DNA from: Thiomicrorhabdus arctica DSM 13458
GTDB taxonomy: Bacteria > Pseudomonadota > Gammaproteobacteria > Thiomicrospirales > Thiomicrospiraceae
Direction: 5' to 3'
Length of the DNA stretch: 64,000 bases
Assembly: GCF_000381085.1 (NCBI RefSeq)
Contig: NZ_KB905899.1
Span: 868,001 to 932,000, forward strand
How positions within the stretch are numbered: position 1 is the first letter of the stretch; each line of letters begins with the position of its first letter. The notes beneath the pieces were generated by a model. It did not search any database. It saw only the letters and a program-made list of their open reading frames with translations, and was not told the DNA's origin. Below, piece after piece: positions 29,349-51,892 of the stretch. The translations under genes were made by a program, and so were the position numbers.

Positions 29349-29363
29349 TTAATTTTCCTAGTG

Positions 29364-29439
29364 GGTTAACGCTTTGATAAGCGGCGCGCGGTAGCGCGTC
29401 CGAATGAGCAACGCGAATGACTTGATTTACTTGTTAGGC
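29364..29439 (-). repeat. attC of cassette 6
   Basis: Ends GTTAACG and GTTAGGC; arms GCGGCGCGCGGTAGCGCGTCC form the central palindrome. Confidence 0.87.
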
Positions 29440-29455
29440 TTTTTATTGCCATGTG

Positions 29456-29686: not shown

Positions 29687-29708
29687 GCGCTGTCCTTCTT
29701 CTTGTGGA

Positions 29709-29770
29709 GCCTAACGCCCCTCTTATGTGGCAACTACGTAGCAGTTGTCCAACATGAAGGGATTGTTATG
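29709..29770 (-). repeat. attC of cassette 5
   Basis: Ends GCCTAAC and GTTATGC (an unusual right core) with arms CCCCTCTTATGT / ACATGAAGGG and a GCAACTACGTAGCAGTTG centre. Confidence 0.82.
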
Positions 29771-30509: not shown

Positions 30510-30538
30510 TATTTCCGTGTCCTCTGATGTGGGTTTTA

Positions 30539-30644
30539 GGCATAACGCTGAGCTAAGCGGCTTGGGTGAGATGGCTGATTTTTTGCTGCTTTTATGCAAA
30601 AAATAGGACAGCTTGCCCAAGTTCGACTGAGCATTTTGTTAGCA
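30539..30644 (-). repeat. attC of cassette 4
   Basis: About 105 bp, the longest of the array. Ends GCATAAC and GTTAGC; arms GCTTGGGTGAG / GCCCAAG and TTTTTTGCTG / GCAAAAAA pair. Confidence 0.82.
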
Positions 30645-30651
30645 GTTTTAC

Positions 30652-31269
30652 TCATAAGTTACTCGGTTTATTTTCTTCAGCCAAAACTTTTTCCATATGT
30701 GGAAAAGCGAACTCTCTTAGAGTTGGATTGTCTGCTCTTATGTCACTGATTATTTGTGACAGATTTCTATTCTTAGCGTCTTTTCCTACAATATTATTAA
30801 AGCTTACCACTGCAAACGAATTTGTAGCCCTTTGAGGGGAATTATTTATATATTCAAGGAATTTTCTCATGCTCCCTTTGGGGGCATAGCCACCCCATGC
30901 CGAACATAAGAGATGAATAGCATTTTTTAACTCACGGTTTAATGGATGTATTTGTGTTCCAGCTTCGTTATTTCCTTCACCTCCACCACCTTGTCCATTT
31001 TCGGCTTGAAATGGATTAAACAGGCTGATCGGCGCATGGCCTGTTAACTGTAGAAATTGATCGCCGCAATCATAACCAACCGAGAAATTTTCAATCTCTT
31101 TTGTTTCTTTATGCTCGGCCTCGAACAGATAATATTTATCTGTAATTGGGCCGCAGCAACCATCTATTTTTTGTCCTGCAAGTAAGCGGATATATACAAT
31201 AGGTTTTATGTTGTACGAATCAACAATTTTATTCTTTGCTTCACTTCCTCGACAATTTAAGAAACTCAT
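30652..31269 (-). CDS. Integron cassette 4: unrecognised 205-residue protein
   Basis: Soluble protein. An N-terminal half with several cysteines (NCRGSEA, DGCCGPITD, GYDCGDQFL) is linked by a Gly-rich spacer (GQGGGGEGN, about residues 95-100) to a helical C-terminal half (LNRELKNAIHLLC). The spaced CxG/CC/CGD cysteines could bind a metal. No family recognised. ATG with GGAGA upstream. Confidence 0.65.
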   Translation of the reverse strand: MSFLNCRGSEAKNKIVDSYNIKPIVYIRLLAGQKIDGCCGPITDKYYLFEAEHKETKEIENFSVGYDCGDQFLQLTGHAPISLFNPFQAENGQGGGGEGNNEAGTQIHPLNRELKNAIHLLCSAWGGYAPKGSMRKFLEYINNSPQRATNSFAVVSFNNIVGKDAKNRNLSQIISDIRADNPTLREFAFPHMEKVLAEENKPSNL

Positions 31270-31284
31270 GACTTCTCCATGACT

Positions 31285-31380
31285 GCTAACGCCTCAAACA
31301 CCGGCTTGGTGAAGTTGGCGGCTTTTTTGTACCAAAAAAGGTGACAGCTTTATCAAGTCCGAGTGCTTTGACTTGTTAGC
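31285..31380 (-). repeat. attC of cassette 3
   Basis: Ends GCTAAC and GTTAGC, with arms GCTTGGTGAAGTTG and TTTTTTGTACCAAAAAA forming a hairpin. Confidence 0.87.
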
Positions 31381-32449
31381 TGCTCTCGTTCTCTGAAATA
31401 TTGAATAAGATTTTGCTTGATTCTTCACTGGTTTCAAAACTAAATCCAACTTTATCGACATCATAGCTCAATCCATTTTCATCGAAATCCTGACAACTTA
31501 AATTACCCCACATATCTTCGTAGCATACTGCAAACACCTTTGGTTCATGCACCGCAGAATGTAACAAATACTGGCCAAAATTTCCTTTTGATAATGTATT
31601 GGAGATACCAGAAAGAAAAGATAGCTCAACCTCGTTACTATTCACTTCAACTCCCACCCACTTATGAATATTAAACGTGATATCACTATACTTTAACTCA
31701 TTGATTGTTAACTCTTTGCCATCAATTTCTGAAGAAAGGCTATTCATTCGAATCATACCTTGGATACACAATGCAAATTGCGAGCGACTCATTTGAGATA
31801 AGGCGACATCATTCAACATCAAATCTCGCATGGTCTCAATTGCACCATCTAAATCAAGCTCAGAGGCCTCTTGAAACAGTTTTAAAAACTCCGAATTACT
31901 AATGCAGTCTTTAAGATAGTGCTTGCTGACACTCTTAAAGTAATAACTTTTAGTGGAAGTACATAAAACGGTAATTGCAGGATTAATAAAGAAGTTCTTG
32001 TCGTATTTCTTCAGCCGCTTAAGCTCACTTCCTTCAATATCACTAGAGAATGAGAAAAGTACAGTAGGTGAAAATCCACCAATATTTTTAAACCTTTCAA
32101 ATTTAGATAAAGTGGTTTTTAGTTCATTTGCATTCAAACCGCTTTTAACTTCAAAGTTATACTTTACCGCTTCGACGGGGACAAAAGTCAGTTCATTTTT
32201 CATGTATGAAGGAAGTATCTCATCATCATAGATGAGAATATCAGTTTCATTTGACTGATCTCCCCTTGAGTTTTCAATAACCCCTTTTGTTAGCTTATAT
32301 CTATTCGGAATAACTTCTCTTACTAGATCAGAAAGTTCGCTTTCATTTAACCCACCTTTAATCCCTTGATGAACAACCTCTTTATTACTTTCAAACTCAA
32401 CCTTTAAGGCTGATATTTTCGCGCTGAATTTATCAGATATGATGCTCAT
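31376..32449 (-). CDS. Integron cassette 3: DUF6602-like, PD-(D/E)XK-type protein
   Basis: 357 residues. The N-terminal 150 residues carry HQGIKGGLNESELSDLV, then ETDILIYDD and, thirty or so residues on, YNFEVKSGL. E...D...ExK in this spacing is the PD-(D/E)XK nuclease pattern and matches DUF6602. The C-terminal 200 residues are helical and unrecognised. Predicted DNA cleavage or binding; a role in defence is suggested only by the company it keeps. ATG with AGAGAAG before it. Confidence 0.75.
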   Translation of the reverse strand: MSIISDKFSAKISALKVEFESNKEVVHQGIKGGLNESELSDLVREVIPNRYKLTKGVIENSRGDQSNETDILIYDDEILPSYMKNELTFVPVEAVKYNFEVKSGLNANELKTTLSKFERFKNIGGFSPTVLFSFSSDIEGSELKRLKKYDKNFFINPAITVLCTSTKSYYFKSVSKHYLKDCISNSEFLKLFQEASELDLDGAIETMRDLMLNDVALSQMSRSQFALCIQGMIRMNSLSSEIDGKELTINELKYSDITFNIHKWVGVEVNSNEVELSFLSGISNTLSKGNFGQYLLHSAVHEPKVFAVCYEDMWGNLSCQDFDENGLSYDVDKVGFSFETSEESSKILFNISENESS

Positions 32450-32484
32450 TTACTTCTCTAATCTGGATGGTTTTTCTTTGTACA

Positions 32485-32544
32485 GCTAACGATTAAGCTA
32501 AGCCGCTGCGCATTAGCGCAGTCGGCTTGAGCGCCTTGTTAGGC
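32485..32544 (-). repeat. attC of cassette 2
   Basis: 60 bp; ends GCTAACG and GTTAGGC; arms AAGCCGCTGCGC / GCGCAGTCGGCTT give a near-perfect hairpin. Confidence 0.9.
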
Positions 32545-33270
32545 CTATTTAGCTGGCAACTGGAGTAGTTCATCAAAATTAATTTCCTCCCCATAAAATG
32601 CCTTATAGTTCCCATCTGGATATGATGTTGATACGCTAAGGCCTATAGAATGCTTTGAATAAAACTGCTTACACACATTCAATATTGTCTCTAGACATTT
32701 CTTTGCATCAGAATAATCAAGATTCACAGGCGAGTTGAACTTATTAGCTGAAAATTTCTTTGACCAATCTACTGAGTCCTCTTGATCATGGACTTCCCAA
32801 CTATTCTCCCCAATTGGTTCTAAAAGCATTGTTGTATTATAGGAACTTCCATGCATTAATATATTTCTAAGGTTGTTGATTTCAGCGATCTTCTGCTTTT
32901 GGATTTCGCTCATTGCATCTAGGTCTAATTTTTCCAGTAGGAAAGTAATTTTATCTACGCTCCTAGTCATGTTCCAGTTTGAAGCCAATTTCTTTAATAG
33001 AAAGTCTCTATTTTCTTCTGATATATACTCATCGGAGTCTTTGTTAAAAAGTAATTTATAACCCAAATCATTAACCAAAGACTCTAGAAAACAAAATCCA
33101 TGCATAATGCTAGACATGGCAAACTGATGCGCTGACATTTTTTCATAGCCAGTGTTTTTAGATACAGCCAAGTCATATGACCGCCTCATAGAGTCGATGG
33201 CTTGCCCAACGTGAGAATAAGTCAGCGACTGGACAACCGTATGTAAATTTCCTTCTGGCATGGTACTCAT
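32545..33270 (-). CDS. Integron cassette 2: HEPN-like protein with RxxxxH motif
   Basis: 241 residues, mostly helical. It contains NLRNILMHGSSYN, where RNILMH fits the Rx4-6H active motif of HEPN ribonucleases. An earlier helix (SSIMHGFCFLESLVNDL) fits the first HEPN core helix. This suggests an RNase or a structural HEPN protein. No antitoxin-type gene (MNT) is next to it. ATG with GAGAG upstream. Confidence 0.65.
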   Translation of the reverse strand: MSTMPEGNLHTVVQSLTYSHVGQAIDSMRRSYDLAVSKNTGYEKMSAHQFAMSSIMHGFCFLESLVNDLGYKLLFNKDSDEYISEENRDFLLKKLASNWNMTRSVDKITFLLEKLDLDAMSEIQKQKIAEINNLRNILMHGSSYNTTMLLEPIGENSWEVHDQEDSVDWSKKFSANKFNSPVNLDYSDAKKCLETILNVCKQFYSKHSIGLSVSTSYPDGNYKAFYGEEINFDELLQLPAK

Positions 33271-33287
33271 AATTCTCTCGTAAGCCT

Positions 33288-33359
33288 AACGTCCAAGCTG
33301 TGCTGTGCGGCGCAAACGAAGCGCAGCGTAGTTTGCATCCGAACAAGCGCCTTGTTAGC
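33288..33359 (-). repeat. attC of cassette 1
   Basis: Ends GCCTAACG and CTTGTTAGC; arms CGCAAACGAAGCGCAGCG / GTTTGC pair around the centre. Confidence 0.9.
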
Positions 33360-34512
33360 TTTGGTTGTGTTTAACAATAAATTTTGCTCTTTCATATAGT
33401 TCGTCAAAAGTAATAATTTCCGGATTTGAAGTATTCTTTCGCAATAATTCAAATGACCTCAATTTATCTTTGTTTACGCCATTATCTGAAACAAACTCGT
33501 TCATGCTGCCAATTACTAGGTAGGATTTAGGTTGGTAATTGAAGATTTCCTCACCCGTAGGGTTGCCTTCTTTATCGCTTGGATTAATTTTACTAGACAA
33601 GTTTTCGATAGCAGATGCAACTGTACCTTGCACCTGTGCAATAGCACCAGCCAATTCCTTAGAAGGTGCCCAACATCCCGACCTGTATGGCTTGGATTCA
33701 AGTAGTTCAGTTGCATGGGTTTTTATTTCAATAAAACAGAGGTTAGAAATAATACCTTTTGTTTTCATTAGGGCGTCAACACGCTTACCATGAGAATCTA
33801 AACTATACCCTTGAACTACTTGCTCAAGCTTCTTGTCATCTAAGCCTGATAAAAATATATAACCTAACCCATAGCCAAATACCCAATTGTTCTTTTCAAA
33901 GTATTTCTGCCAGAGCCCTTCATTGGAACATTTCTTTTTTTCTTTTAGGCTATCAAAGTAACTTTGATCACTGAGTAAACTTTCATAGACGCTCAATTGC
34001 TTCTTTCTGTAACCGACAGCAATTAGATCCTCTGTTGTAACCTCGGACTTCAGAACTTCAGCAAACAGATCTTGGTTTTCCGTAACGAATGTTTTTGCTT
34101 GGTGAGTAGTTAAAGCGATTTTCCGAAGTTCTTCGTCAGTAATATTTACTTTGGCTCTAGTTTTGAAATCAACAGACTGGATATTAGCCAGGAACTCACA
34201 AAATCTTCCTATTTCTTCACCTACAAACGAAAACCCCGTTCCGTTGGGCTGGCCTGTTTCTGATACAAACTTTTGGACAGTTAACACAAAGGTTTGCCGA
34301 GTATCTTCAAGAAACTTTGCTGTTATATATGTTTTAGCATCCGGTTTTTTTCGCAAAACAACTTCATCGCGCTCTTTCACATATTCATAACCATCTTCGG
34401 AGGGTAATATTTTTGAAGCAATACGAACCCTTCGCTCTTTGTCACCGAAAGACTGGAGAGAAGGACTTATATATGTTTTCCCAGGCAGAGGGCTTTGATA
34501 ATCATCATCCAT
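33355..34512 (-). CDS. Integron cassette 1: Shedu (DUF4263) immune nuclease
   Basis: 385 residues. The C-terminal half follows the Shedu nuclease domain: LWQKYFEKNNWVFGYGLGYI, KRVDALMKTKG, CFIEIKTHATELL, YRSGCWAPSKELAGAIAQVQ. D in VDAL and E/K in EIK are the PD-(D/E)XK active residues. The N-terminal 170 residues are a sensing region with KTYITAKFLEDTRQTF. Shedu alone protects against phage in other bacteria. As first cassette it lies closest to intI, where expression from the integron promoter should be highest. ATG at 34512 was chosen; an upstream ATG at 34542 lies on the far side of the recombination point. Confidence 0.9.
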   Translation of the reverse strand: MDDDYQSPLPGKTYISPSLQSFGDKERRVRIASKILPSEDGYEYVKERDEVVLRKKPDAKTYITAKFLEDTRQTFVLTVQKFVSETGQPNGTGFSFVGEEIGRFCEFLANIQSVDFKTRAKVNITDEELRKIALTTHQAKTFVTENQDLFAEVLKSEVTTEDLIAVGYRKKQLSVYESLLSDQSYFDSLKEKKKCSNEGLWQKYFEKNNWVFGYGLGYIFLSGLDDKKLEQVVQGYSLDSHGKRVDALMKTKGIISNLCFIEIKTHATELLESKPYRSGCWAPSKELAGAIAQVQGTVASAIENLSSKINPSDKEGNPTGEEIFNYQPKSYLVIGSMNEFVSDNGVNKDKLRSFELLRKNTSNPEIITFDELYERAKFIVKHNQS

Positions 34513-34684
34513 ATTTTTGATTTTTCTCCGAGAAGCTAACATTTAGTATAAGGCATTCTTGCCTTGGTATTGGGTATTGAAATTAATTTCAGGTCTATTT
34601 TCCTGCATATAGAGAAAACTGTTGTTCTGACATGATAATACGTTATTATACATACAACCCTGTCAATTTCTGAAATACGGTTAT
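34513..34684. promoter_or_regulatory. Integron attI and promoter region
   Basis: The crossover lies at GCTAAC (34532-34538; GTTAGC on the cassette strand), where attI joins cassette 1. The gap up to intI should contain attI, the cassette promoter and the intI promoter. I looked for a LexA box and found only partial CTG...CAG-like text, so SOS control is not supported here. Confidence 0.65.
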
Positions 34685-35665
34685 ATGAATACTACCCTAA
34701 AAAAACCTTCTTTTCTAGATGAAATGCGTAGTCAATTGCGACGAGAGGGATATGCGTATTCTACAGAAAACACTTACTGCGATTGGGTTAGGCGGTTTGT
34801 TAAGTTTCATGGTTTTTTGGATCGTGAATCGATGCTAATTGACTCCACCGCAAGAGTGGAGCAGTTTTTAACAAACTTGGCCGTTGAGCAAAATGTAGCA
34901 CCCTCAACACAGAACCAGGCGTTAAATGCGTTGGTTTATTGCTACTGCAAGGTTTTACAGGTGCCATTTTCAGACCTGAAGGCCAGTCGTTCTCGAAAAG
35001 AGCCGAGAATTCCAGTGGTCTTAACTAAAGAAGAGGTTGGCGAGGTTTTATCGGTAATGGATGGCGCGGCGGGATTGATTGCCAAGTTATTATATGCGAG
35101 TGGGCTTCGCATCACGGAAGCCGTTAGATTGAGAGTTCAGGATATTGATTTTGGATTTAAACAAATAACCGTTCGTGATGGAAAAGGTAAAAAAGATAGA
35201 GTGACTCCTCTTGCCAACAACTTAGTACCACTTATTGAAAACCAATTAAAAATGGTCAAAACTTTGCACCTTCAGGATCTGGAGAAAGGATTAGGGTCGG
35301 TTTATTTGCCGTATGCATTGGCAAAAAAATATCCCAATGCGGATAAAGAGCTGGGCTGGCAATATGCTTTTCCGAGCCGGAACCTGGCAGTTGACCCGCG
35401 CTCGGGCATAATGCGCCGACATCACATTGATCAATCGGTTGTCAACAAAGCCATTAAGCGAGCGGTGAAACAGTGCAGCATATACAAAAAAGTGAGCGCG
35501 CACACCTTCAGACACTCGTTTGCCACGCATTTATTACAAACCGGTACGGATATTCGAACAATTCAAGCGTTATTGGGGCATGCCGATTTAAGGACCACGA
35601 TGATTTACACGCATGTATTGAAACAGGGTGGTCAGGGAGTCGTGAGTCCGTTTGATAACTTATAA
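34685..35665 (+). CDS. intI: Integron integrase (tyrosine recombinase)
   Basis: 326 residues. Catalytic residues are all visible: R in LYASGLRITEA, HxxR in HTFRHSFATH, H in LLGHADLRTT and Y in TTMIYTHV. The stretch ALAKKYPNADKELGWQYAFPS is the extra helix found only in IntI and needed for attC recognition, which separates it from XerC/D and phage integrases. It is divergent from the cassette array. It looks intact, so the array may still gain or lose cassettes. A terminator and palindrome follow. Confidence 0.95.
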   Translation: MNTTLKKPSFLDEMRSQLRREGYAYSTENTYCDWVRRFVKFHGFLDRESMLIDSTARVEQFLTNLAVEQNVAPSTQNQALNALVYCYCKVLQVPFSDLKASRSRKEPRIPVVLTKEEVGEVLSVMDGAAGLIAKLLYASGLRITEAVRLRVQDIDFGFKQITVRDGKGKKDRVTPLANNLVPLIENQLKMVKTLHLQDLEKGLGSVYLPYALAKKYPNADKELGWQYAFPSRNLAVDPRSGIMRRHHIDQSVVNKAIKRAVKQCSIYKKVSAHTFRHSFATHLLQTGTDIRTIQALLGHADLRTTMIYTHVLKQGGQGVVSPFDNL

Positions 35666-41974: not shown

Positions 41975-42080
41975 AGGGTCAGAGTAAAATTAAATCACTC
42001 TTTGAAACTAACTAAGTATCGTACACAATGAATATGAGTAATAAAGCCTATCAAAAACAACCAGACCTGGTCCGTTCTAA
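41975..42080. repeat. MITE-like repeat copy A
   Basis: Starts CAGGGTCAGAGTAAAATTAA and carries ATCACTCT, TAATAAA and then the palindrome variant ACCAGACCTGGTC (42060-42072). Same order as the copies at 47751 and 49800. The right inverted end is not recognisable. Confidence 0.75.
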
Positions 42081-42228
42081 AATAGGCAAGTGTCAAAGGC
42101 GCTTAGGATTAAAGGGGGGACGCCTTTTTCTCTTGGTCCATGCAACAAGAGTGAACAAGGTTAAACAAAAAAAGGCTGTCTCTGTTTAATGTAATGGCAG
42201 GCGAAGATATGTGACACTTCATTAGGCG

Positions 42229-42672
42229 TTATGATTCTTCTGTATTGAATTCAAAAACTACAGGTTCTACGTTCGGTCTTGAAACCGTAATGTCGAATTG
42301 TACTGGAAAGGTCGAAGTTACAATATAGGTGCCTAGCCATGTCTGTTTAGAATGTTTCATTTCCCGTCGCAATTCCATGATTTGTTGAGCAGTCCCGATG
42401 GTTCGATAGGTTGCTGTAACGTTATCCGCAAGCGGAGCCACGCATGACAATACACCTGTATTCGGGTCAGGCTTGATACTATGACGTGACAAGCTTTCTT
42501 TCGGCAACTGGGTTGAGTTCATGGCTGTACAGCGTATCTCTGTGCCATCGATGTTTTCTACATGGTAAGCACGTTTAAAGCTTTTATTCTGCGAAGCATC
42601 GTCACAGGCTACAAGCAAAGAGATACCTATCAGTAAAAATATCCATTTTTCGATTTTCGCTATGTTTTTCAT
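42229..42672 (-). CDS. Lipoprotein of unknown function
   Basis: 147 residues; leader with lipobox LLVAC (Cys at about residue 23). Two more cysteines (IRCTAMN, LSCVAPL). The beta-rich end (TYIVTSTFPVQFDITVSRP) suggests a small secreted fold. Not recognised. Confidence 0.72.
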   Translation of the reverse strand: MKNIAKIEKWIFLLIGISLLVACDDASQNKSFKRAYHVENIDGTEIRCTAMNSTQLPKESLSRHSIKPDPNTGVLSCVAPLADNVTATYRTIGTAQQIMELRREMKHSKQTWLGTYIVTSTFPVQFDITVSRPNVEPVVFEFNTEES

Positions 42673-42710
42673 TTCAATTCCTCTATCGATAAGATATGAC
42701 CATTATGTAG

Positions 42711-42926
42711 GATTTATCCGTTATCCGCATTGAAATATGTCAATGCTTACCCCAGACGGCCACTGTAAGCGTCGCTGATCAGGAAATTGTCTTTCGTTTT
42801 TATACTCATGTTGCCGCTAATTCAGATAATGAAACCGTACGAAAATATGCAGAAATTTTAGCTAAGGAAGAGCTTGGCCATGCAGCTTTACTTCGAGCAG
42901 AACGTCGCTACACTTATCATGCTTAA
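42711..42926 (+). pseudogene. C-terminal remnant of a ferritin-like (rubrerythrin-type) gene
   Basis: About 71 codons open from 42711 to the TAA at 42924. The last 50 read DQEIVFRFYTHVAANSDNE..., KYAEILAKEELGHAALLRAE and RRYTYHA. E and ExxH in KEELGHA fit the second iron site of ferritin-like proteins. There is no start codon and the first half of the fold is missing, so it is a truncated gene in the repeat-rich patch. It is too short for the six-frame list limits, and I read it directly from the bases. Confidence 0.75.
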
Positions 42927-43299
42927 CGTAAAAATCGCGCGTTCTTCAGGACTTAAATGATAATAATTGCTCAGGTATACATTCTGATTGAATGTGTTGC
43001 ACTTGCAACTTGAACCTAAGACGTCCCCTTTTCTTGTGAGTTGACAAGATCCTTATAAGTAAGTATTGTTACTACGTTGAGCGTATAAAGTACGACCTTC
43101 TATTAATCTTGGAATTTTTGACACGAAGTCTAAGCGGGCAGCTCTTATGATTAAAACCTGTAAGTTGCTGCTAAGACGACCCGATGCGGTACTGCATCCG
43201 GGAAAAAATAATTTAATGACGTCATTACTCATTTTTACAAATGATGTTTAAAATGCCCGTCTGGGCAACTGTTTAAAAACCAGTTAAAGGAGATCTATA
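42927..43299. other. Leader region of the ice-binding-like gene
   Basis: It contains GACGTCCCCTTTTC (REP-like) near 43021 and a hairpin CCCGATGC / GCATCCGGG (43180-43202). A run AAACCTGTAAGTTGCTGCTA precedes it. The hairpin lies about 100 bases before the start codon and could be a 5' leader structure; I do not recognise a riboswitch class. Confidence 0.45.
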
Positions 43300-44508
43300 A
43301 TGATTACCCAACATTTGAAACTCGTAATTCCTCTCACTGTGGCCCTTGCATGTGGTAGCGCCGCAGTCAGCGCCGCGCCATTAGTACTCGGTGACGATTT
43401 GAATAGCTTAACGGTATTTTCTAATACCTACACCACCACTGGTGCGAATTCCAGTGTCTACGGCAACGTACTATCCGGCGGCGTTTCGACCACCGGTACA
43501 AATGCTGCGGTCACTGGTAATCTTGTATCGGTGGGCGCCGCAAACGTTGGCGGTGGTACGTCCACCGTCGGCGGCGATGTAACGTCTAACGGGGCTATGA
43601 TGGTTGGCGGTGCAGTCACTGCGCTGAATGGCCCTATCGTTAGCGGTAGCATCACGTCCACTGGCGATTCGACGATTGGCGCGTATGCGACAGTCGGCGG
43701 TGATATGTTATCTGGCGGTGCGGCAACGACAGACGCCAACGCCAATGTCCTTGGCAATCTGTGGTCAGGTGGCGCGGCCACTGTCGGGGCGAACTCTACT
43801 GTATCCGGTAATTTGACGTCGACGTCAGGGCCCATCACTATCTCAGCCAGTGGTAATGTTGGCGGAATCCAGACGACGGGGGGAGCAATGCCAACGTTGT
43901 CGGGAGTACGCACCAGCGTTTCTTCTGAGTCGACACAAGTGACCAACGCGCAAACTTTGCTCAGTGGTTTGGGTTCAGGTACGGCCCTCGCCGCAGTGCC
44001 ATATAGCATGACGCTCGCGCCTGGTGTTTATAGCGCTGCCAGTCTGTCCATGGCCGCGGGTAATACCTTCACACTGGATGGCCAAGGTCAAGAAGACCCG
44101 TTCTGGGTTTTCAACATCAAAGATATTCTGGCCCCTGGTGATAACACGGTGGTTAGCTTGATCAATGCTGGTGACAGTGCCAGTGTGTTCTGGAATGTAA
44201 GTGACGGTTATGCCAGTATCGGTGACAACTCTACGTTCATTGGCACGATTTTCGCAGACAATTATATCAGCGTCGGTGCAAGCACCACAGTGAGTGGCCT
44301 CGGGTCTTCTTGCGGTGGCATCTTTTCGGCGACTTCATACGTCTCAACCGGCGATGGCGCAAGCATTGGCGGAATAGGTTGTTCAGGTGTGAACGTGACG
44401 TCGGTGACGTCGGCAGTGCCTGAACCACAGATGTTTGGATTGATGCTTACTGGTCTTGGTGTGCTAGGTTTTGTTACACGTCGTCGCGCCCAAGCCAAGC
44501 GCGCATAA
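43300..44508 (+). CDS. Ice-binding-like (DUF3494) protein with PEP-CTERM sorting signal
   Basis: 402 residues with a signal peptide (about 1-27, AVSAAP). Residues about 50-190 are degenerate Gly/Ser/Thr/Val repeats (GGDVTSNG, GSITSTGDSTIG) that suit a beta-helix. Residues about 230-370 match DUF3494 (LAPGVYSAASLSM, DPFWVFNIKD, TFIGTIFADNYISVG). The end is VPEPQMFGLMLTGLGVLGF plus Arg-rich tail, a PEP-CTERM signal read by an exosortase. It may coat the cell or bind ice; DUF3494 proteins have both roles. Its base composition is richer in G and C than the neighbours, which suggests import. Strong AAAGGAG before the ATG. Confidence 0.88.
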   Translation: MITQHLKLVIPLTVALACGSAAVSAAPLVLGDDLNSLTVFSNTYTTTGANSSVYGNVLSGGVSTTGTNAAVTGNLVSVGAANVGGGTSTVGGDVTSNGAMMVGGAVTALNGPIVSGSITSTGDSTIGAYATVGGDMLSGGAATTDANANVLGNLWSGGAATVGANSTVSGNLTSTSGPITISASGNVGGIQTTGGAMPTLSGVRTSVSSESTQVTNAQTLLSGLGSGTALAAVPYSMTLAPGVYSAASLSMAAGNTFTLDGQGQEDPFWVFNIKDILAPGDNTVVSLINAGDSASVFWNVSDGYASIGDNSTFIGTIFADNYISVGASTTVSGLGSSCGGIFSATSYVSTGDGASIGGIGCSGVNVTSVTSAVPEPQMFGLMLTGLGVLGFVTRRRAQAKRA

Positions 44509-44662
44509 TCTAAAACCAGAACTGAACCACTAAAAATCCAATCAGCTTCAACGATTCGGAACTTAAGGGTTCAGGTCTTTGGTTTTAACCCAGTATTTAG
44601 CTAGGCCGCATAGTGATGGTGTCGGCCTAGCGACTCAAGATTAAAGGCAGATTAAAGGGATT

Positions 44663-44682
44663 AAAGGGAACGCTACCCTTTT
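44663..44682. repeat. REP-like flank, left of the transposase pseudogene
   Basis: AAAGGGAACGCTACCCTTTT. Its reverse complement recurs with one mismatch at 45367-45386, so the two enclose the gene as inverted repeats. Confidence 0.8.
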
Positions 44683-45340
44683 ACAGGTCGCCCTACGGGT
44701 TTAAACTTTAGACTACGATTCGTTTTTTTCTCTAAGCCTTCAATAAAACCATCTCCTCCACACGGAAGACCTTTATCAATATTTCTTCTCAAAACTATCA
44801 TGTGCTCTTCCGAGTTTTCTTTTTGTAAATAACTTTTCCAACCTCTTTACTCAGCCGGGCTGTAGGATTCAGAAATATTAGATAAAAGAACAGACTCGGT
44901 TATACCCATATGGGCTGAAGCACTAGACCAAAGATAATCTTCTGGATTATCAACTATTTTGGCTCTAACAGGGTTTTGCTCTACATAACGAATAGCCGAA
45001 TGAGTATAAGCCCCATCTAAAGCTGAAGAGAAAAAACGACCTTGCCACAAGTGCCTTTCCAATGATGTTTTTTATTAATGTACTGCGCATAACGCATATG
45101 AAGGGGCTTAAGAACTTTTTGCAAGCCATCTTCCGTTGATGGCTTCAAAATTAAATGAATATGGTTTGTCATTAAACAATATGCCCAAACTTCAACTTCG
45201 TGTTTAACACTGTAATCATGTAACAAATCAAGATAGAACTCTCGATCTAAATCACAAAAGAACACATCTTCACGACGATTACCACGCTGGGTAATGTGAA
45301 ACGGGATATCAGATAAAACAACTCGGGCTAATCTAGGCAT
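44673..45340 (-). pseudogene. Broken REP-associated tyrosine transposase (Y1_Tnp)
   Basis: The N-terminal part (MPRLARVVLSDIPFHITQRG, then MTNHIHLILKP with the HUH-type His pair) is intact to about 45030. The frame then shifts within TGGAAAGGCACTTG so that HLWQGRFFSSALD continues in another frame to 44847. There a TAA interrupts it, while the same frame goes on as GWKSYLQKENSE...KPVGRPVKG to 44673. Two lesions make it non-functional. Such enzymes mobilise REP palindromes, and REP-like inverted repeats lie on both sides. Confidence 0.88.
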
Positions 45341-45366
45341 GATTCAATAGCAGCAGAGTTCAAAAT

Positions 45367-45386
45367 AAAAGGGTAGCGTCCCCTTT
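45367..45386. repeat. REP-like flank, right of the transposase pseudogene
   Basis: AAAAGGGTAGCGTCCCCTTT, inverted partner of 44663-44682. Confidence 0.8.
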
Positions 45387-45561
45387 GCTACCCATGTTTT
45401 TTAAATTTTTCTTTATAAATCAATATGATGATGTAAATCATAAAATATATTACCATGTGTTATCAGGTTCTGATAAAGTAGTAAGATAAGTAATAAAACT
45501 TAGCCTTTAGTCTGCTATAAAACGCTTAATATTTGATATAAATTAAAGTAAGGAGGACGTA

Positions 45562-46383
45562 ATGTCTAATAAAGCAACCTCAACACATGAACACGATCAT
45601 TATACCGAGGCCGGAGAGAATATCATTTCAAGCGATGTTCAATTATCCAACATTGGGCGTTGGTTGAAAAAAGGCTGGCACGACATGGCGCATGCGCCCA
45701 GTATTTCCCTTTTCTATGGCCTGGCAATGGCCTTGTCCGTGATGCTGATGTTATTTGCTGTTCAATATCAGCCAATACAGATGATTACCATCGCAGTAGT
45801 GTTTATTATCTTATCGCCATTTTTGGCTACCGGACTGTATTACACAGCACACAGACTGGAGCAAGGGGAAAAACCTTCATTAGGCACATCTATGGTAGCT
45901 TGGAGTAGTAAAAAATCGAATTTCGGCCTTTTTGCCATCTGCTTAGTGATCATTGCCGCTATTTGGATAAACGCTGTGCCATTTTTTGTCGCGGTTGTAC
46001 TTGGGGCAAGTTCACTCTTAATCGTTGACACGAGCATGGGTGTAACGGGGTTCCTCGCCACACAAGAAGGCCTAGCTTTCTTGGTTCTTTTTGTTGGCCA
46101 TAGCGTGATAATGGCGGCTTTTGTATTTATGATCAGCGTGGTGACCATTCCGTTAATGTTACGAGACAAAAATATTGGCGCAATCTCAGCCATGATTTTA
46201 AGCTTTAAGATTGTGATGGAAAATAAACTTGTAATGACGGCTTGGGCGCTGGTTATTGGCTTTATGCTTATTGTGGGTATCATGTCGCTGGGCTTAGGTA
46301 TGTTAATTGTGATGCCGTTGCTCGGTTATGCCAGCTGGCACGCTTTTAATGATCTGGTCTCAATACATGAGAACATTGTTTAA
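45562..46383 (+). CDS. DUF2189 family membrane protein
   Basis: 273 residues. A soluble N-terminus of about 40 residues is followed by about six membrane helices. ALMVL-type helices with ATGLYYTAHRLEQGEKPSLG and IPLMLRDKNIGAISAM fit DUF2189. These proteins often occur near cytochrome oxidase genes, but none lies here. Very good ribosome binding site (AAGGAGG). Confidence 0.87.
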   Translation: MSNKATSTHEHDHYTEAGENIISSDVQLSNIGRWLKKGWHDMAHAPSISLFYGLAMALSVMLMLFAVQYQPIQMITIAVVFIILSPFLATGLYYTAHRLEQGEKPSLGTSMVAWSSKKSNFGLFAICLVIIAAIWINAVPFFVAVVLGASSLLIVDTSMGVTGFLATQEGLAFLVLFVGHSVIMAAFVFMISVVTIPLMLRDKNIGAISAMILSFKIVMENKLVMTAWALVIGFMLIVGIMSLGLGMLIVMPLLGYASWHAFNDLVSIHENIV

Positions 46384-46485
46384 ATAATCACAACGTTATA
46401 ACTCACGATTTACCCGCCTATCAGAATAAAGTGAGGTTCCCCCACAAAACTGGACACTAAATATTACCATTTAGGAGTCCTAAAA

Positions 46486-46812
46486 ATGAATCGAAAATAC
46501 ACCGCTTTTACTAAAGAGTTTAAACTCGAAACTCTGCATCTAGCAAGCCAACCTGATACAGTTATCGCTCACCTTGCTAGGGATCTTGGTATCCGTAGAA
46601 ATATGATTTATAAATGGAGGCAGCAATTGAACTCAAAAGATGAAAAGGCATTCAAAAGAACCGCCACCAACGAAAATACAGAGCATAGACAGCTAACTGT
46701 CTCCGAACTTATCAAAGACAATAACCGGCTTCAAAAAGAACTGCAACTAGCTGCAATGGAGAATGAAATCTTAAAAAAGGCTCAGGCTTACTTCGAGGAA
46801 GAAAAGGACTGA
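46486..46812 (+). CDS. IS3-family OrfA
   Basis: 108 residues: a helix-turn-helix (FKLETLHLASQPDTVIAHLA, RDLGIRRNMIYKWR) and a leucine-zipper end (LIKDNNRLQKELQLAAMENE). It ends 26 bases before the first ATG of orfB. A run AAAAAAG near 46774 is a typical slippery site, and the orfB frame is open back through it, so a -1 shift would give the OrfAB transposase. OrfA binds the IS ends. Confidence 0.9.
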   Translation: MNRKYTAFTKEFKLETLHLASQPDTVIAHLARDLGIRRNMIYKWRQQLNSKDEKAFKRTATNENTEHRQLTVSELIKDNNRLQKELQLAAMENEILKKAQAYFEEEKD

Positions 46813-46838
46813 GATTTAAGTTCATAGAGGCACAGCAG

Positions 46839-47675
46839 ATGAACTACCCCGTAGCCCTGTTATGTAAATGCTTAGATGTCTCTAAGAGTGGTTTTTATCA
46901 CTGGAAAACGGCACCCGTCAGCCAAAGAAGTAAGCACGATAACTATTTGTTATTGAAAATAATTGAAGCCTATAAAGCAGGCCGTAAAAACTATGGTTCA
47001 CCAAGAGTTTATAACGAGCTTAAGGCAAAGAGCATCAGTATTAGTCTAAATAAAGTCGCTAGAATGATGAAAAAGCATGGCATTCATGCCGTTACATCGA
47101 TAAAACACAAGAAGGCCAAAATCGCACGTAACACGAGGGGCTTTTCAGACAATGTTTTAGATAGAGAGTTCACTGCCATTAAGCCCGGTAAAAAATGGGT
47201 AAGTGATACCACTTTTGTCTATACACGACAGGGCTGGCTTTATCTTGCGGTGATTATTGACCTTTATTCTCGTAAAGTTATCGGTTGGTCAATGAGCCAA
47301 TATAACGATACCAAACTGGTCTCTAGAGCATTAGAAATGGCAGTTAAAGTAAAGCCAATAAAGGAGCAAGTACTCTTGCACTCAGACCAGGGATCAACTT
47401 ATCGAGCTGATGCTTACTTAGCCTTATTTAAGAACAATAAAATTATGCAGAGCATGAGTCGAAAAGGTGAATGCCACGATAATGCCGTTGCTGAAAGCTT
47501 TTTTAGCACCTTAAAATCAGAATTAGTCTATCAAACAACTTACCAAACTAGAGAAGAAGCTAAAAGCAGCATCTTTGAGTACATCGAAGTGTTTTACAAT
47601 AAAGTGAGAAGGCATTCATATTTGAATTATGAATCGCCCAAAAATTATGAAATGGCTTTTTATAATAGAGTCTAA
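46839..47675 (+). CDS. IS3-family OrfB (DDE transposase part)
   Basis: 278 residues from its own ATG; longer as a frameshift fusion. HTH_21-like start (KNYGSPRVYNELK), then the rve core with D in WVSDTTFVY, D in LLHSDQGSTY and E in AVAESFFSTLKSE. All three catalytic residues are in place, so the IS looks active. Confidence 0.93.
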   Translation: MNYPVALLCKCLDVSKSGFYHWKTAPVSQRSKHDNYLLLKIIEAYKAGRKNYGSPRVYNELKAKSISISLNKVARMMKKHGIHAVTSIKHKKAKIARNTRGFSDNVLDREFTAIKPGKKWVSDTTFVYTRQGWLYLAVIIDLYSRKVIGWSMSQYNDTKLVSRALEMAVKVKPIKEQVLLHSDQGSTYRADAYLALFKNNKIMQSMSRKGECHDNAVAESFFSTLKSELVYQTTYQTREEAKSSIFEYIEVFYNKVRRHSYLNYESPKNYEMAFYNRV

Positions 47676-47702
47676 ACAGTCCAGTTTATTGGGGGAACTT
47701 CA

Positions 47703-47716
47703 TAGCGTCCCCTTTT
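47703..47716. repeat. REP-like half site at the right side of the IS
   Basis: TAGCGTCCCCTTTT directly abuts the IS end. The solo IS end at 40018 is preceded by the reverse complement form GAGGACGCTA, so both IS ends touch the same motif. Confidence 0.7.
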
Positions 47717-47750
47717 CCACTGTTTGTGCTTACGCCCAATGAAATTAAAG

Positions 47751-47896
47751 GGGGTCAGAGTAAAATTTAAATCACTCTAAAACCAATAAGACATCACACA
47801 CAGCAACTACGTAATAAAGTCACAAAAAACCCGCGTAAAGCGGTCTTATTAAAACTACCAGGCCTGGTCAGATTGTTTTGATTTTACTCTGAGCCC
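47751..47896. repeat. MITE-like repeat copy B with terminal inverted ends
   Basis: About 146 bp. Left GGGGTCAGAGTAAAAT and right ATTTTACTCTGAGCCC are inverted copies. Inside lie ATCACTCT, TAATAAA, a hairpin AAACCCGC..GCGGT and the palindrome TACCAGGCCTGGTC (47856-47869). It is the most complete unit in the window. Confidence 0.85.
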
Positions 47897-47914
47897 GAAC
47901 TCAAAATAAATTAC

Positions 47915-48289
47915 TTATGGCCGCAATTTATCGACCAATTCGCTTGTGATGTGGAATTTTTCGTGTGTTGGCTCTATTGATATTCTGCTAGGAGATTCAA
48001 AATCTGAGCCTGTTGTCGCCTGTCTAAGCTTGGTAAGCGTTGATTGATGCTTAGAGGGAAGTTTTGATTCTAATTTTTTTAAATGTTGTTTAATTTTTAT
48101 AGATGCGATGATAGATTGATTATCAACGCCATTATTTGTCCAAAAAGCGGTAGAGTCTTCTTCTAGTTGATTTAAAACTGTGTTTAGCTCTTCTTTACTT
48201 TTCAGACGACTATTGAAGTAGTAGGTGATACTGGCTGTAACAATCGGGATGATAAGCCAACTAGCGACTATGTATTCGTTTGAAATCAT
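47915..48289 (-). CDS. Third gene of the ATPase module: small membrane-anchored protein
   Basis: 124 residues. One N-terminal transmembrane helix (YIVASWLIIPIVTASITYYF) and a charged, helical cytosolic part with KIKQHLKKLESKLPSKHQST. Start ATG at 48289 overlaps the stop of the STAS-like gene (ATGA-type), so it is translationally coupled. No family recognised. Confidence 0.7.
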   Translation of the reverse strand: MISNEYIVASWLIIPIVTASITYYFNSRLKSKEELNTVLNQLEEDSTAFWTNNGVDNQSIIASIKIKQHLKKLESKLPSKHQSTLTKLRQATTGSDFESPSRISIEPTHEKFHITSELVDKLRP

Positions 48290-48618
48290 AGTTTTCTTTG
48301 CTTTGCGGCATCTTCTATGTATTCCCAAATCTCAGACTGAATACTTGGGAATTCTGTTGTTTTTATTTCTAAGCTTTTTCTTAATTGATCTAGCGTATAG
48401 TTGCTTTCTCTGACAAGGCCTCCAAAAGCTTCTTCTACAAAAGATGAGCCATAACCAATAGAGCCATCTAATTCAACGATGACTTTATCGTATTCATTTA
48501 GAGCTGGCACTAGCAACTTTTCGCGAAAACCTTGTCCAGTAAATTGACCATCTCCGGTATATCTTCCTGCTGGTGCCCAGGTATAGTCGTTTTTAATGTT
48601 GATTGTTTTCTTGTTCAT
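48286..48618 (-). CDS. Second gene of the module: STAS-like DUF4325 protein
   Basis: 110 residues. GRYTGDGQFTGQGFREKLLVPAL, VIVELDGSIGYGSSFVEEAF and GGLVRE match DUF4325, an STAS-like fold. In partner switching such a domain is the target of a GHKL kinase. It begins 26 bases inside the preceding ATPase gene. Confidence 0.85.
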   Translation of the reverse strand: MNKKTINIKNDYTWAPAGRYTGDGQFTGQGFREKLLVPALNEYDKVIVELDGSIGYGSSFVEEAFGGLVRESNYTLDQLRKSLEIKTTEFPSIQSEIWEYIEDAAKQRKL

Positions 48619-49702
48619 CTTCTATCATCTTTTGTAATTTATCTAATGGTGCTGACCAAGATATTATGGTGCCCATTATAGAATGTTTTAAGTCAGTGGA
48701 AAATTTTTCTTTTTTTGAGGCTGAATAAGTATATAAGCCTTTGTTGCTTAAAATCGACAGGCTACCGTCTTGCATAATATCTATGGCCTCTTTTAATTGG
48801 GCCATCCCTTTTCCTCGGTGTGCAAGATCAGAAGATGAAGAGCCAACCTCCATTGAGGTTTTAATAACTTTGCTTTCTTTGCCACCATCTAGCTTGCTTA
48901 TTACTTTTTTTATGAATGAGAAGTCATTTCTATTTTTAAGTGATTCTGGTATTCCCTGTCCAAGGTCACAAATAACAAGCGTTAATCGCTCTTCATTGCA
49001 GCCTGTAAACATCCACCACTTGTGATCACTGAATGGATACCCGTCTGCTCTTTCTGGTATTTCTTTTTTGGTTTTTGTGTTTTTATATGCGTGCATGCAA
49101 GCATTCGTAATTGCCTCGCTTATGCCATTAAAGAAAGCAGACCTATACTTAGGCTTCAGATTTATCTTTTCTAACTCTTTGGCTGCGTTTATTACTGTTG
49201 CGTCTGTTCCTGTTAGGTAATTATTCCAATAGGTTACAGTTTTATGGTTTATATCAACTTTTGTATTAATGCCTAACAGTCTTGATAGCCCCGTTTTACA
49301 AAACACTTGTGCTGGTATATCTTCGGTTGGTAAACAACCTTTTATATAACTAGAGTTGGTTAGATATTGAATTCGTTCAATCTCTGCTATAAGCATCAGT
49401 GTTGCAGTAGATTCCATGTACTTAACATCTTTGAACGATATAAATATCCTTTTTCTTTTTTGAACCGTTAGTTTTTTTATTTTACTAAAGAACGCAATGG
49501 TTTTATTGTGTGCCTTTCGTTCGAATGAAATGTGTTGTGGCGAGATTATTTGTACAATTCTTTCATTGTCCAGTTTGTTCAAAAATCCAGAATTCAATCG
49601 GTTTTTAGCAAGCTTTTTACTTTTAGAAAGTAGTTTTCGTTTAAATCTTTTGCGACGGCGATTTATAGTATGTTTGGTTGTTTTCACGCTATTAATTTTC
49701 AT
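48593..49702 (-). CDS. First gene of the module: GHKL ATPase with STAS-like N-terminal part
   Basis: 369 residues. A basic start (HTINRRRKRFKRKLLSKSKK) leads to an STAS-like stretch (RIFISFKDVKYMESTATLML, about residues 85-105). A histidine-kinase-like ATPase domain follows: N box FNGISEAITNACMHAY, G1 VICDLGQGIPE, G2 AHRGKGMAQLKEAI. There is no phospho-accepting His domain, so it is more like an anti-sigma/serine kinase or a switch ATPase. With the DUF4325 gene it looks like a partner-switch pair; what it controls is unknown. Confidence 0.82.
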   Translation of the reverse strand: MKINSVKTTKHTINRRRKRFKRKLLSKSKKLAKNRLNSGFLNKLDNERIVQIISPQHISFERKAHNKTIAFFSKIKKLTVQKRKRIFISFKDVKYMESTATLMLIAEIERIQYLTNSSYIKGCLPTEDIPAQVFCKTGLSRLLGINTKVDINHKTVTYWNNYLTGTDATVINAAKELEKINLKPKYRSAFFNGISEAITNACMHAYKNTKTKKEIPERADGYPFSDHKWWMFTGCNEERLTLVICDLGQGIPESLKNRNDFSFIKKVISKLDGGKESKVIKTSMEVGSSSSDLAHRGKGMAQLKEAIDIMQDGSLSILSNKGLYTYSASKKEKFSTDLKHSIMGTIISWSAPLDKLQKMIEDEQENNQH

Positions 49703-49799
49703 TTAAAATTTTGTATTCCCTAAAAAGTTAATGCGAGTAGAAATGACCACACAAATGATTCTACGTTGCTAATCGGCAGTTATTTTGATTTAAATAATT

Positions 49800-49900
49800 G
49801 GGGTCAGAGTAAAAGTGAAATCACTCTAAAGCTAACAAGTCATCATACACAAAAAATACGTAATAAATTCTATAAAAAACAACCAGGCCTGGTCAGTTCT
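49800..49900. repeat. MITE-like repeat copy C
   Basis: GGGGTCAGAGTAAAAGTGAA, ATCACTCT, ACGTAATAAA and the palindrome ACCAGGCCTGGTC (49882-49894), in the same orientation as copy B. Copies B and C enclose the three-gene ATPase module. Confidence 0.83.
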
Positions 49901-49944
49901 AACAACGGATAGATCGCTTATCAATACAGTGCTGAATTTAAGAC

Positions 49945-49975
49945 ACAAAAAAACCGCCAAAAGGCGGTTTCTTCA
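49945..49975. terminator. Terminator after the pyruvate dehydrogenase operon
   Basis: AAACCGCC-aaaa-GGCGGTTT (49951-49970), with A-tract on the plus strand giving a T-tract for the minus-strand operon. Confidence 0.88.
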
Positions 49976-50098
49976 GATTAAGAAACGAGTTAGTTGCGAG
50001 ATAAAACTTGTCAGTTCAAGGCTTGAAAATGTTGAGCATACAAGTGTATGTGATCATTTTCATAACGCAGAAATGGCGAGTTTTAGACGCAACCCAAA

Positions 50099-51892
50099 TT
50101 ACTTACGCTTCTTAGGTGGCATTAGATCTGTAATTGTCCCTTCCGCCATCTCTGCCGCGAAACAAAGCGTCTCTGACAAAGTAGGATGCGGATGAATAGT
50201 AAGCGCTAAATCTTGCATATCAGCCCCCATCTCAATCGCCAACATCGCTTCGGCGATCAACTCACCTGCATTAGGCCCGACAATACCGCAACCCAACAGT
50301 CTATGCGTTTTTGCACAGAACATCGCTTTGGTAAGGCCTTCATCGCGTCCTAGACTTAAGCTACGTCCAGATGCCGCCCATGGGAATGCGCCCTTCTCGT
50401 ACTCAATGCCTTCGGCCTTAAGTTCGTCTTCGGTTTTACCCGCCCAAGCCACTTCTGGGTCGGTGTAAGCCACTGATGGAATGCTCATTGGCGTGAACGC
50501 GCTTGGCATGCCGCTAATGACTTCTGCCGCTACCTTACCTTCGTGTACCGCTTTGTGCGCTAACATTGGCTGACCGACAATGTCACCGATGGCGTAGATA
50601 TTACCGACATTGGTTTCTTGGCGCTCATTGACTTCAATGAAGCCCCAATCGTTGACGGCCACACCGGCTTTTTCAGCATCAATCAGTTTACCGTTGGCCG
50701 CACGACCTACCGCGACTAAGACGCGATCGAAGGTATCGGTGTCAGGACAGTCTTTACCTTCAAAGGTAACGACCAGGCCTGCATCGGTGGCTTCAACGTT
50801 AGTGACCTTAGATTTAAGGAAAACGTTTTCGTACTGTTTTTTGATTTTCTTAAGCAATGGCTTAGAGATGTCTTTATCCGCACCTGGGATAATAGTATCG
50901 CCCAGCTCAACCACGGTAATGCTTGAACCTAAAGAGTCATAAACCTGAGCCATCTCTAGGCCGATAATGCCGCCACCGATCACCAATAGACGCTTAGGAA
51001 TCTCTTCAAGCGCTAAGGCACCGGTAGAGTCCATAACACGTGGATCGTCATGTGGAATGAAAGGTAACTTAACAACACGTGAACCGGCCGCGATAATCGC
51101 TTTTTCAAACGCGATGGTCTTTATAGAACCATCAGCCGCTTCAACGCTGACCGTATTAGCCGAGGTGAATTTACCGTAACCGGTCACCACTTCTACTTGA
51201 CGTGCTTTGGCCAGACCTGTTAGACCGCCAGTCAGCTTATTAATAACACCGTCTTTGAAGGCACGAATCTTATCAATATCAATTTTTGGCTCAGCAAAAG
51301 TAATACCGTGAGCGCCCATCTCTTTGGTTTCATTTAACACCACAGACATGTGCAATAGGGCTTTAGACGGAATACAACCGACGTTTAGACACACCCCACC
51401 GATATCGTTATAACGCTCAATCATGACCACTTTTTTGCCAAGATCAGATGCACGGAACGCTGCGGTGTAACCACCTGGGCCAGACCCTAATACCAATAGT
51501 TCACACTGCATGTCTGCATCTGGTAAGTCTGCTGCGGCAACCGCTTTCGGCGCTTCAGTTTTAGGTGCTTCAGCTTTAGGGGCTTCTGCTACCGTCGGTT
51601 CCGCCGTTGCGGCCACAGATGCTTCCACATTTGCCGCGACAGTCTCAGTATTGGCGATTTCAATCGTCCCAATAATGGAACCTTCTTTAACTTTGTCGCC
51701 GACCTCGACACTCATCGAAATAATTTTACCGGCAAAAGGCGCTGGAATTTCCATGGTCGCTTTGTCTGATTCTAAGGTTAACAAAGAATCATCTTGAGCC
51801 ACTTCTTCACCCGCCGAAACCAATACTTCAATGACGTCTACTTCTGCAAAGTCACCAATATCTGGAACAATAATATCTACAATCTTAGTCAT
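50099..51892 (-). CDS. lpd: Dihydrolipoyl dehydrogenase (E3) with N-terminal lipoyl domain
   Basis: 597 residues. Residues 1-80 are a lipoyl domain (lysine in LESDKATMEIP); an Ala/Pro linker (about 90-120) follows. The reductase has GSGPGGYTAAFRASDLGKKV, redox disulfide GGVCLNVGCIPSKALL, NAD site VIGGGIIGLEMAQVY and the C-terminal base HPHPTLSE. It re-oxidises lipoamide in the pyruvate dehydrogenase complex. The extra lipoyl domain is known in several proteobacterial E3 enzymes. Last gene of the operon, 11 bases after aceF. Confidence 0.95.
   Translation of the reverse strand: MTKIVDIIVPDIGDFAEVDVIEVLVSAGEEVAQDDSLLTLESDKATMEIPAPFAGKIISMSVEVGDKVKEGSIIGTIEIANTETVAANVEASVAATAEPTVAEAPKAEAPKTEAPKAVAAADLPDADMQCELLVLGSGPGGYTAAFRASDLGKKVVMIERYNDIGGVCLNVGCIPSKALLHMSVVLNETKEMGAHGITFAEPKIDIDKIRAFKDGVINKLTGGLTGLAKARQVEVVTGYGKFTSANTVSVEAADGSIKTIAFEKAIIAAGSRVVKLPFIPHDDPRVMDSTGALALEEIPKRLLVIGGGIIGLEMAQVYDSLGSSITVVELGDTIIPGADKDISKPLLKKIKKQYENVFLKSKVTNVEATDAGLVVTFEGKDCPDTDTFDRVLVAVGRAANGKLIDAEKAGVAVNDWGFIEVNERQETNVGNIYAIGDIVGQPMLAHKAVHEGKVAAEVISGMPSAFTPMSIPSVAYTDPEVAWAGKTEDELKAEGIEYEKGAFPWAASGRSLSLGRDEGLTKAMFCAKTHRLLGCGIVGPNAGELIAEAMLAIEMGADMQDLALTIHPHPTLSETLCFAAEMAEGTITDLMPPKKRK

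Follow-up and report, generated by a model that had tools for sequence, protein, structure and literature searches.

A cassette of three overlapping genes, found in the 64,000-nucleotide stretch of the Thiomicrorhabdus arctica genome analysed here (the window), encodes a kinase with STAS-like and GHKL parts, a STAS-like protein of the DUF4325 family and a small membrane protein. The cassette is best read as a mobile operon in which the kinase gates a membrane effector, for abortive infection or stress, and we put the probability of this reading at roughly 0.57. The trio appears to be an undescribed relative of VapKSC, the toxin-releasing switch reported in 2026 (Chambers et al., PMC13373217). 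No description of the three-gene system was found in open-licence papers of PubMed Central.

The open reading frames and their translations place the three genes at 47915-49702, on the minus strand, with overlaps of 26 and 4 bases (Table 1). This arrangement, the insertion sequence beside it and the direct repeats around it are as the original prediction had described them. The longest open reading frame of the membrane protein begins with TTG at 48328 and has 137 residues. The cassette is A+T-rich, with a G+C content of 35.6%, whereas the window as a whole has 41.6% and the adjacent lpd gene 48.2%; a value as low as this is reached in 6 of 312 sliding windows. A scan for promoters and terminators gave numbers close to chance (11 against 7.7 and 2 against 1.4).

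Table 1. The cassette, its flanking repeats and the adjacent transposase genes, in window coordinates
Feature	Position	Strand	Basis
STAS-GHKL protein kinase, 369 aa	48593-49702	-	ORF, model, profile
DUF4325 STAS-like switch protein, 110 aa, probable kinase substrate	48286-48618	-	PF14213
Small membrane protein, 124 aa from ATG, probable effector	47915-48289	-	ORF, AlphaFold2
Codons of Ser58-Ser59, candidate phospho-acceptor pair	48442-48447	-	codons read
Imperfect palindrome, 146 nt, cassette 3' flank, ends GGGGTCAGAGTAAAA and near-complement	47751-47896	.	repeat search
Related repeat copy, cassette 5' side	49792-49896	.	repeat search and inspection by eye
IS3-type transposase pair (orfA, orfB) beside the cassette, context only	46486-47675	+	Pfam HTH_Tnp_1, rve

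The direct repeats (47743-47829 and 49792-49878) are 80% identical across 87 nt; by eye, no matching right-hand end was seen in the copy on the 5' side. The repeat core GGGGTCAGAGTAAAA, with at most one mismatch, occurs five times in the genome, four of them inside 41975-49814 of the window and near a broken RAYT-like transposase gene, and the repeats that flank the cassette therefore look like local repeats of the RAYT/REP type. That they are the boundaries of a transposing unit is possible and unproved. The RAYT-like Y1 transposase gene itself (44663-45386) is seemingly broken into two overlapping open reading frames in different frames, and a 21-nt inverted repeat, 95% complementary, lies on its flanks. 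Elsewhere in the window, 25978-35665 is probably a chromosomal integron. A tyrosine recombinase on the plus strand (34685-35665), which by eye resembles an integron integrase, diverges from an array of minus-strand genes with three attC-like repeats of 56 nt at 27340, 28664 and 32486. Fifty genes of the window were compared with PADLOC, and the matches include SduA (Shedu, E 3e-175) and bSEFIR (E 1e-79); these perhaps lie in the array at 25978-34542, where the gene at 29766-30620 starts, by eye, like a TIR/SEFIR protein.

By profile, modelled structure and ATP-site residues, the 369-residue protein is a kinase of the type that phosphorylates STAS proteins. Compared alone with Pfam it gave sub-threshold matches to STAS (E 0.07) and HATPase_c_2 (E 0.0016), and phmmer returned no match in the PDB up to E 1. 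A profile of the kinase and 102 relatives (102 of the 116 kinases listed, plus that of the window) matched RsbW and SpoIIAB at E about 6e-4. The AlphaFold2 model (mean pLDDT 88) consists of a basic N-terminal helix (residues 6-37), a STAS-like part (about 50-150) and a GHKL part (about 157-355). The best structural match of the GHKL part is SpoIIAB (Z 12.4, rmsd 2.7-3.3, 125-132 residues aligned), and RsbW aligns over 109 residues with Z 11.0 and rmsd 1.9; the Ser-kinase fold and motifs of this class are present. The assignment of the GHKL part is secure on both profile and structure. That of the STAS part, which the structural comparison hardly touched, is less sure and draws on weak sequence matches and the look of the model. 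Nine residues, E196, N200, H204, W229, D246, G248, G297, G299 and T345, are invariant in all 99 aligned kinases; all of them except H204 and W229 are counted as residues of the ATP site. The kinase also matches the unannotated phage family phrog_3364 (E 1e-51).

The N-terminal leader of the kinase is strongly basic. The net charge of the first 45 residues has a median of +12 in the kinases of the membrane branch and is at least +6 in 95 of 99; in eight VapK-like, CapK-like and pair kinases it ranges from -5 to +6, and three VapK-type examples have -1, +2 and +6. Neither the kinase nor DUF4325 contains an HTH or wHTH domain by Pfam up to E 1, and in the model the place before the STAS domain of the kinase is taken by the long basic helix.

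The middle protein is a member of Pfam PF14213 (E 7e-12; 45.3 bits against a curated cut-off of 23), a family which Pfam calls STAS-like. In an alignment of 101 DUF4325 proteins (100 of the 123 distinct ones listed, plus that of the window), every sequence has Ser59, and at position 58 there are 92 with Ser and 2 with Thr. The relatives were scanned with peptide patterns containing Ser59, E63 and F65, and the 101/101 conservation of these residues is therefore partly built in. Among 24 DUF4325 proteins found without a pattern containing Ser59, 23 have Ser59, 19 have Ser58 and one has Thr58, and all 24 have Ser or Thr in at least one of the two positions; L251 combines Ser58 with Ala59 (in L251 and L260 these residues were read by eye). 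Ser48 of VapS, located by residue counting, aligns with Ser58 of the window protein, a position that is Ser or Thr in 94 of the 101 aligned proteins and in 20 of the 24 independent ones and thus is not absolute in the family. Whether Ser58 or Ser59 would be the phospho-acceptor is unsure. The nucleotide-binding motifs of the kinase, the fold that it shares with SpoIIAB and RsbW and the Ser at the switch helix of DUF4325 bear out the partner-switching logic of the original prediction.

The best PDB match of the DUF4325 profile is VapS (9z7o), a weak one at E 0.055. Profile-profile comparison with a set of five proteins, three of the VapS type and two from kinase-STAS pairs, gave a probability of 95.9 (E 6e-9). 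Alone, DUF4325 found only chance-level matches in the PDB by phmmer, the best being lambda repressor at E 0.21, and Pfam recognises no DNA-binding domain in it. In many Gammaproteobacteria PF14213 is also part of longer open frames, about 350 aa in length (L169-L198), and 54 of 369 genomes of the class contain the family; among L169-L198 the kinase profile matched, besides the trios L180 and L186, only L192 and L193, both weakly.

The third protein is modelled by AlphaFold2 (mean pLDDT 92) as one N-terminal transmembrane helix that continues into a four-helix bundle, with helices at 17-64, 70-89, 92-106 and 123-135 in the numbering from TTG. It has no Pfam match up to E 1, its fold has no match at E 0.001 or better in the PDB and viral libraries, and structural comparison of the bundle singled out no family. 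In 155 relatives the hydrophobic stretch is followed by a mean of 4.4 Lys/Arg in 15 residues and preceded by 0.5 in at most 12; the excess lies after the stretch in 150 and before it in 3. By the positive-inside rule, the bundle should therefore be cytoplasmic and within reach of DUF4325. By a crude measure, 123 of 163 third proteins have a single N-terminal hydrophobic stretch, 13 also have a C-terminal one and 7 have none. The thirteen (L008, L038, L039, L048, L059, L061, L073, L086, L122, L127, L128, L145 and L164) perhaps form a subfamily.

The original prediction had called the third protein a small membrane anchor and had seen no effector nearby. Both statements are probably wrong: a membrane-anchored helical bundle takes the place of VapC, and by analogy of gene position and from the comparison with VapKSC, the third gene most likely encodes the effector itself. 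An unlikely alternative is that the membrane protein is a sensor or tether, which passes a signal such as membrane stress or the entry of phage DNA to the kinase-STAS pair, and that the output lies elsewhere. A transmembrane helix running straight into a four-helix bundle is the build of the sensor domains of receptors such as PcaY and NarX, which the bundle resembles with a best Z of 9.9, a value within the range given for chance helical matches. The very basic N-terminus of the kinase could bind lipid or the membrane protein of the trio, and the third protein is the most divergent of the three, with a mean column identity of 13% (DUF4325 36%, kinase 19%; third-protein alignment from 102 of 132 listed plus that of the window, forms with a second C-terminal helix mostly left out). 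Receptor sensor domains, however, are periplasmic, and the bundle is cytoplasmic by charge in those 150 of 155 relatives. The trio also lies among unrelated genes on a 14-kb plasmid, its neighbour families vary, and in VapKSC the same gene position is occupied by a toxin (PMC13373217).

A neighbourhood survey of the ATPase-DUF4325 pair, of the kind named in the original prediction, bore out the association of the two genes. As a single query the kinase found no relative in IMG/VR, and a second kinase searched against phages again returned only phage AS1. An alignment of DUF4325 then did find IMG/VR relatives, encoded on 236 viral contig stretches, and 180 relatives on genome contigs; the best 80 of each were studied, together with six other loci. 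A total of 167 loci were tabulated, with L003 excluded (its DUF4325 is on the other strand, and by coordinates it is apparently the same record as L134). Among these best-scoring relatives a kinase or a piece of one adjoins DUF4325 in 149 of the 151 loci with room for it (viral 71/72, genomic 72/73, others 6/6), and 144 kinases have at least 280 residues. A third gene of fitting size, 115-225 aa, is present in 159 of the 160 loci with room downstream; it starts within 10 nt of DUF4325, or overlaps it, in 147 of the 159 and encodes an uncharged stretch of at least 15 residues in 154.

These counts exclude loci near a contig end and rest on crude gene calling (longest open reading frames first) and on a loose definition of the third gene, namely any open reading frame of 115-235 aa whose start lies between 60 nt ahead of the DUF4325 end and 250 nt beyond it; the third gene of L146 is doubtful, and near-copies leave 123 distinct kinases of 146. 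The search patterns were confined to DUF4325, and the linkage of kinase and third gene is therefore not built in. Its extent rules out chance open reading frames. A profile of eight third proteins matched one open reading frame per locus in 104 of 198 loci.

A search of 398 Pseudomonadota genomes with the kinase profile gave 21 matches, VapK-like and other kinases included. Seven of the nine strongest, own genome included, belong to trios by profile; L260 has a third protein that is hydrophobic by eye, and L262 has no recognised third gene. The weaker matches comprise VapKSC (L266, L268), a CapKS-like pair (L267), a kinase-STAS pair and fused forms, and further kinase-STAS pairs came from the PF14213 loci. 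Pairs with no obvious third gene close behind (L240, L245, L250, L253, L269) possibly represent a further type of output or act on an unlinked effector. A tree was built from 50 kinases, of which 34 were drawn at random from distinct membrane-type loci, one was that of the window and 15 were others. The 37 kinases with a membrane third gene lie on one side of a branch (support 93/94, and seen in 90% of the 200 bootstrap trees); a separate branch (98/94) unites three VapKSC kinases. L252, which has no third gene, is placed beside the membrane group, and several other entries have long branches and unsure placement.

The cassette is accessory and mobile, as the original prediction had held. Two of 32 genus genomes carry the kinase, as do 3 of the 95 genomes that were searched, that of the window included in both; by coordinates the other carrier in the genus is apparently L134 (Thiomicrorhabdus), for which the values are identical to those of L003. 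The cassette lies behind lpd, and the kinase is absent there in all 25 relatives in which at least 784 nt could be read. A core gene at a fixed place was rejected on these grounds. The genes behind lpd vary among the 25 relatives, a few being common to several genomes, and the site downstream of the pyruvate dehydrogenase operon (49900-50100) looks like a variable insertion spot in the genus. Trios are also carried by two Vibrio and two Acinetobacter plasmids, with one kinase cut short (L007), and by Marinobacter phage AS1, where a Cro/CI-type gene lies close by on the opposite strand. The cassette DNA has no match in E. coli genomes.

In the published gene table of the temperate Francisella phage KIRK, the CI repressor is adjoined by three proteins in the order of the trio: one of 293 aa that shares 23% identity with phage AS1, a DUF4325 protein and a transmembrane protein (PMC7924643). 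The immediate upstream neighbour of the trio was read in 58 distinct viral loci; it has the same direction as the trio in 46 and the opposite one in 10, and the contig ends in 2. The scan of upstream genes covered 47 proteins encoded on the same strand, namely the nearest one in 45 of the 46 loci and the next one out in two loci. Peptidase_S24 was found within two genes in 13 of the 58 loci; in 45 no S24 repressor was found at this distance on the same strand. The S24 proteins are, by their domain, in all likelihood CI-type repressors. With near-copies counted, a home-made S24 profile had a match no more than two genes upstream in 16 of 70 viral loci and in 5 of 71 genome loci, and 20 of these 21 are on the same strand. 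The position behind the S24 gene suggests that in some prophages the trio is probably co-transcribed with cI.

The same position might mean that the trio senses DNA damage on behalf of the prophage and tunes CI or superinfection immunity, instead of defending against other phages; ssDNA activates CapK, and CapS controls transcription (PMC13373217). We regard this as improbable, since plasmids carry the trio too and one chromosomal site has it with no repressor present, DUF4325 has no Pfam DNA-binding domain and matches lambda repressor at chance level only, and a membrane protein would be an odd output of a repressor circuit. A housekeeping partner switch aimed at an unlinked sigma factor or another cytoplasmic protein is very improbable: the closest folds are indeed anti-sigma kinases, but the distribution is patchy and mobile (2/32 genus genomes; 21/398 in the phylum with VapK-like and other kinases counted), and no linked sigma factor is among the neighbour families listed, two of the three lists being the first 25 families. 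A direct sigma-factor switch was likewise considered and rejected. Neither a fixed core position nor a constant tie to a sigma factor, either of which would have spoken against the original prediction, was seen as far as tested.

PADLOC 2.0.0 assigned none of the trio proteins to a family at E up to 1. For 60 genome loci 219 neighbour proteins were listed, of which 150 were scanned; the matches include Mads, type I RM, AbiLi, Mza, AriA and a DRT, the scan not giving the number of proteins matched; 148 of 212 listed viral neighbour proteins were scanned as well. The control stretch, 50 of the 57 called genes of the window, itself holds defence genes (SduA, bSEFIR and others), and for this reason enrichment in defence islands could not be shown. 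The defence role suggested by the original prediction is plausible and unproved.

A kinase-gated membrane effector would work as follows. In the undisturbed cell DUF4325 would be bound to the cytoplasmic helical bundle of the membrane protein and keep it inactive. A signal, probably DNA damage or phage infection, would be read by the groove between the STAS and GHKL parts of the kinase or by its basic N-terminal helix. The trigger may be ssDNA, by analogy with CapK, although an aromatic residue stands at kinase column 95, tentatively matched to a residue of the ssDNA site, in only 15 of 99 sequences (Tyr95 in the window); the basic leader may instead read another nucleic acid or the membrane. 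The GHKL domain would then phosphorylate DUF4325 at Ser58 or Ser59, upon which DUF4325 would let go of the membrane protein. The freed protein is envisaged to assemble in the inner membrane and harm it, so that growth stops before the phage matures. Lysogens with the trio behind cI would carry the operon ready made, as lambda lysogens carry rexAB.

If this mechanism is correct, it gives a function to a DUF and to phrog_3364, and it provides a simple, testable model for a lysogen that arms a lethal membrane protein only when needed. It would also extend the CapK/VapK finding of 2026 from RNase and repressor outputs to a membrane output, one kinase-STAS switch being fitted with RNase, transcription and membrane outputs. 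The broader proposal, that of a widespread and undescribed class of immunity, carried by phages and plasmids, whereby a Ser kinase frees a membrane-killing protein from its STAS inhibitor, as a phosphorylation-gated counterpart of RexAB, is tentative, with chances somewhat short of even.

Four known systems can be compared with the trio. Lambda rexAB, accessory genes behind cI, encodes a cytoplasmic sensor and a membrane protein, whose supposed role is to halt infected cells; RexB crosses the membrane with several helices, and RexAB contains neither a kinase nor a STAS protein. The likeness is an analogy only. SpoIIAB-SpoIIAA and RsbW-RsbV have the GHKL Ser-kinase fold and a STAS-like substrate in common with the trio, but their kinases are small separate proteins without a fused STAS domain, their target is a sigma factor, and they are chromosomal core genes.

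In CapK and CapS a STAS-GHKL kinase is again paired with a STAS substrate, and the CapKS-like locus L267 was recovered by the kinase profile; they differ in the N-terminal HTH of CapK and in the C-terminal wHTH of CapS, which acts as a repressor (PMC13373217).

The closest system is VapKSC. There VapS keeps VapC blocked by binding to it, an effect that is lost with the phosphomimic S48E, and the toxin is set free once VapS is phosphorylated; the operon gives E. coli protection against one phage, and mutations in the VapC toxin, the VapS Ser and the putative ssDNA site of the kinase each abolished the protection (PMC13373217). Activation of VapK by ssDNA is not shown directly in that paper. Locus L238 is a VapKSC operon, with a PF14213 STAS gene (E 3e-13) and a PIN protein as third gene (E 1e-11). 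The kinase profile matches the kinases of L238, L266 and L268, which lie beside VapS- and VapC-type genes, at E 1e-12 to 3e-10; homology to VapK was judged from these three, and a VapS fragment had no match in plasmids. The trio shares with VapKSC the order kinase - STAS protein - third protein, a STAS-GHKL kinase homologous by profile, and a PF14213 switch protein with Ser at the switch helix. It differs in the basic leader of its kinases, which form their own group in the tree, in the conserved N-terminal motif of its DUF4325 proteins (P-G-R ... DG ... G ... FR), and in the third gene, which in VapKSC encodes a PIN RNase and in the window a transmembrane helix with a helical bundle. Membership in VapKSC was rejected because the PIN-domain toxin is missing, and the window trio is therefore a new variant outside that system. 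The homologous kinase, the same switch family and gene order and the membrane protein in the place of the toxin together make it likely that phosphorylation of DUF4325 releases an effector that acts on the membrane.
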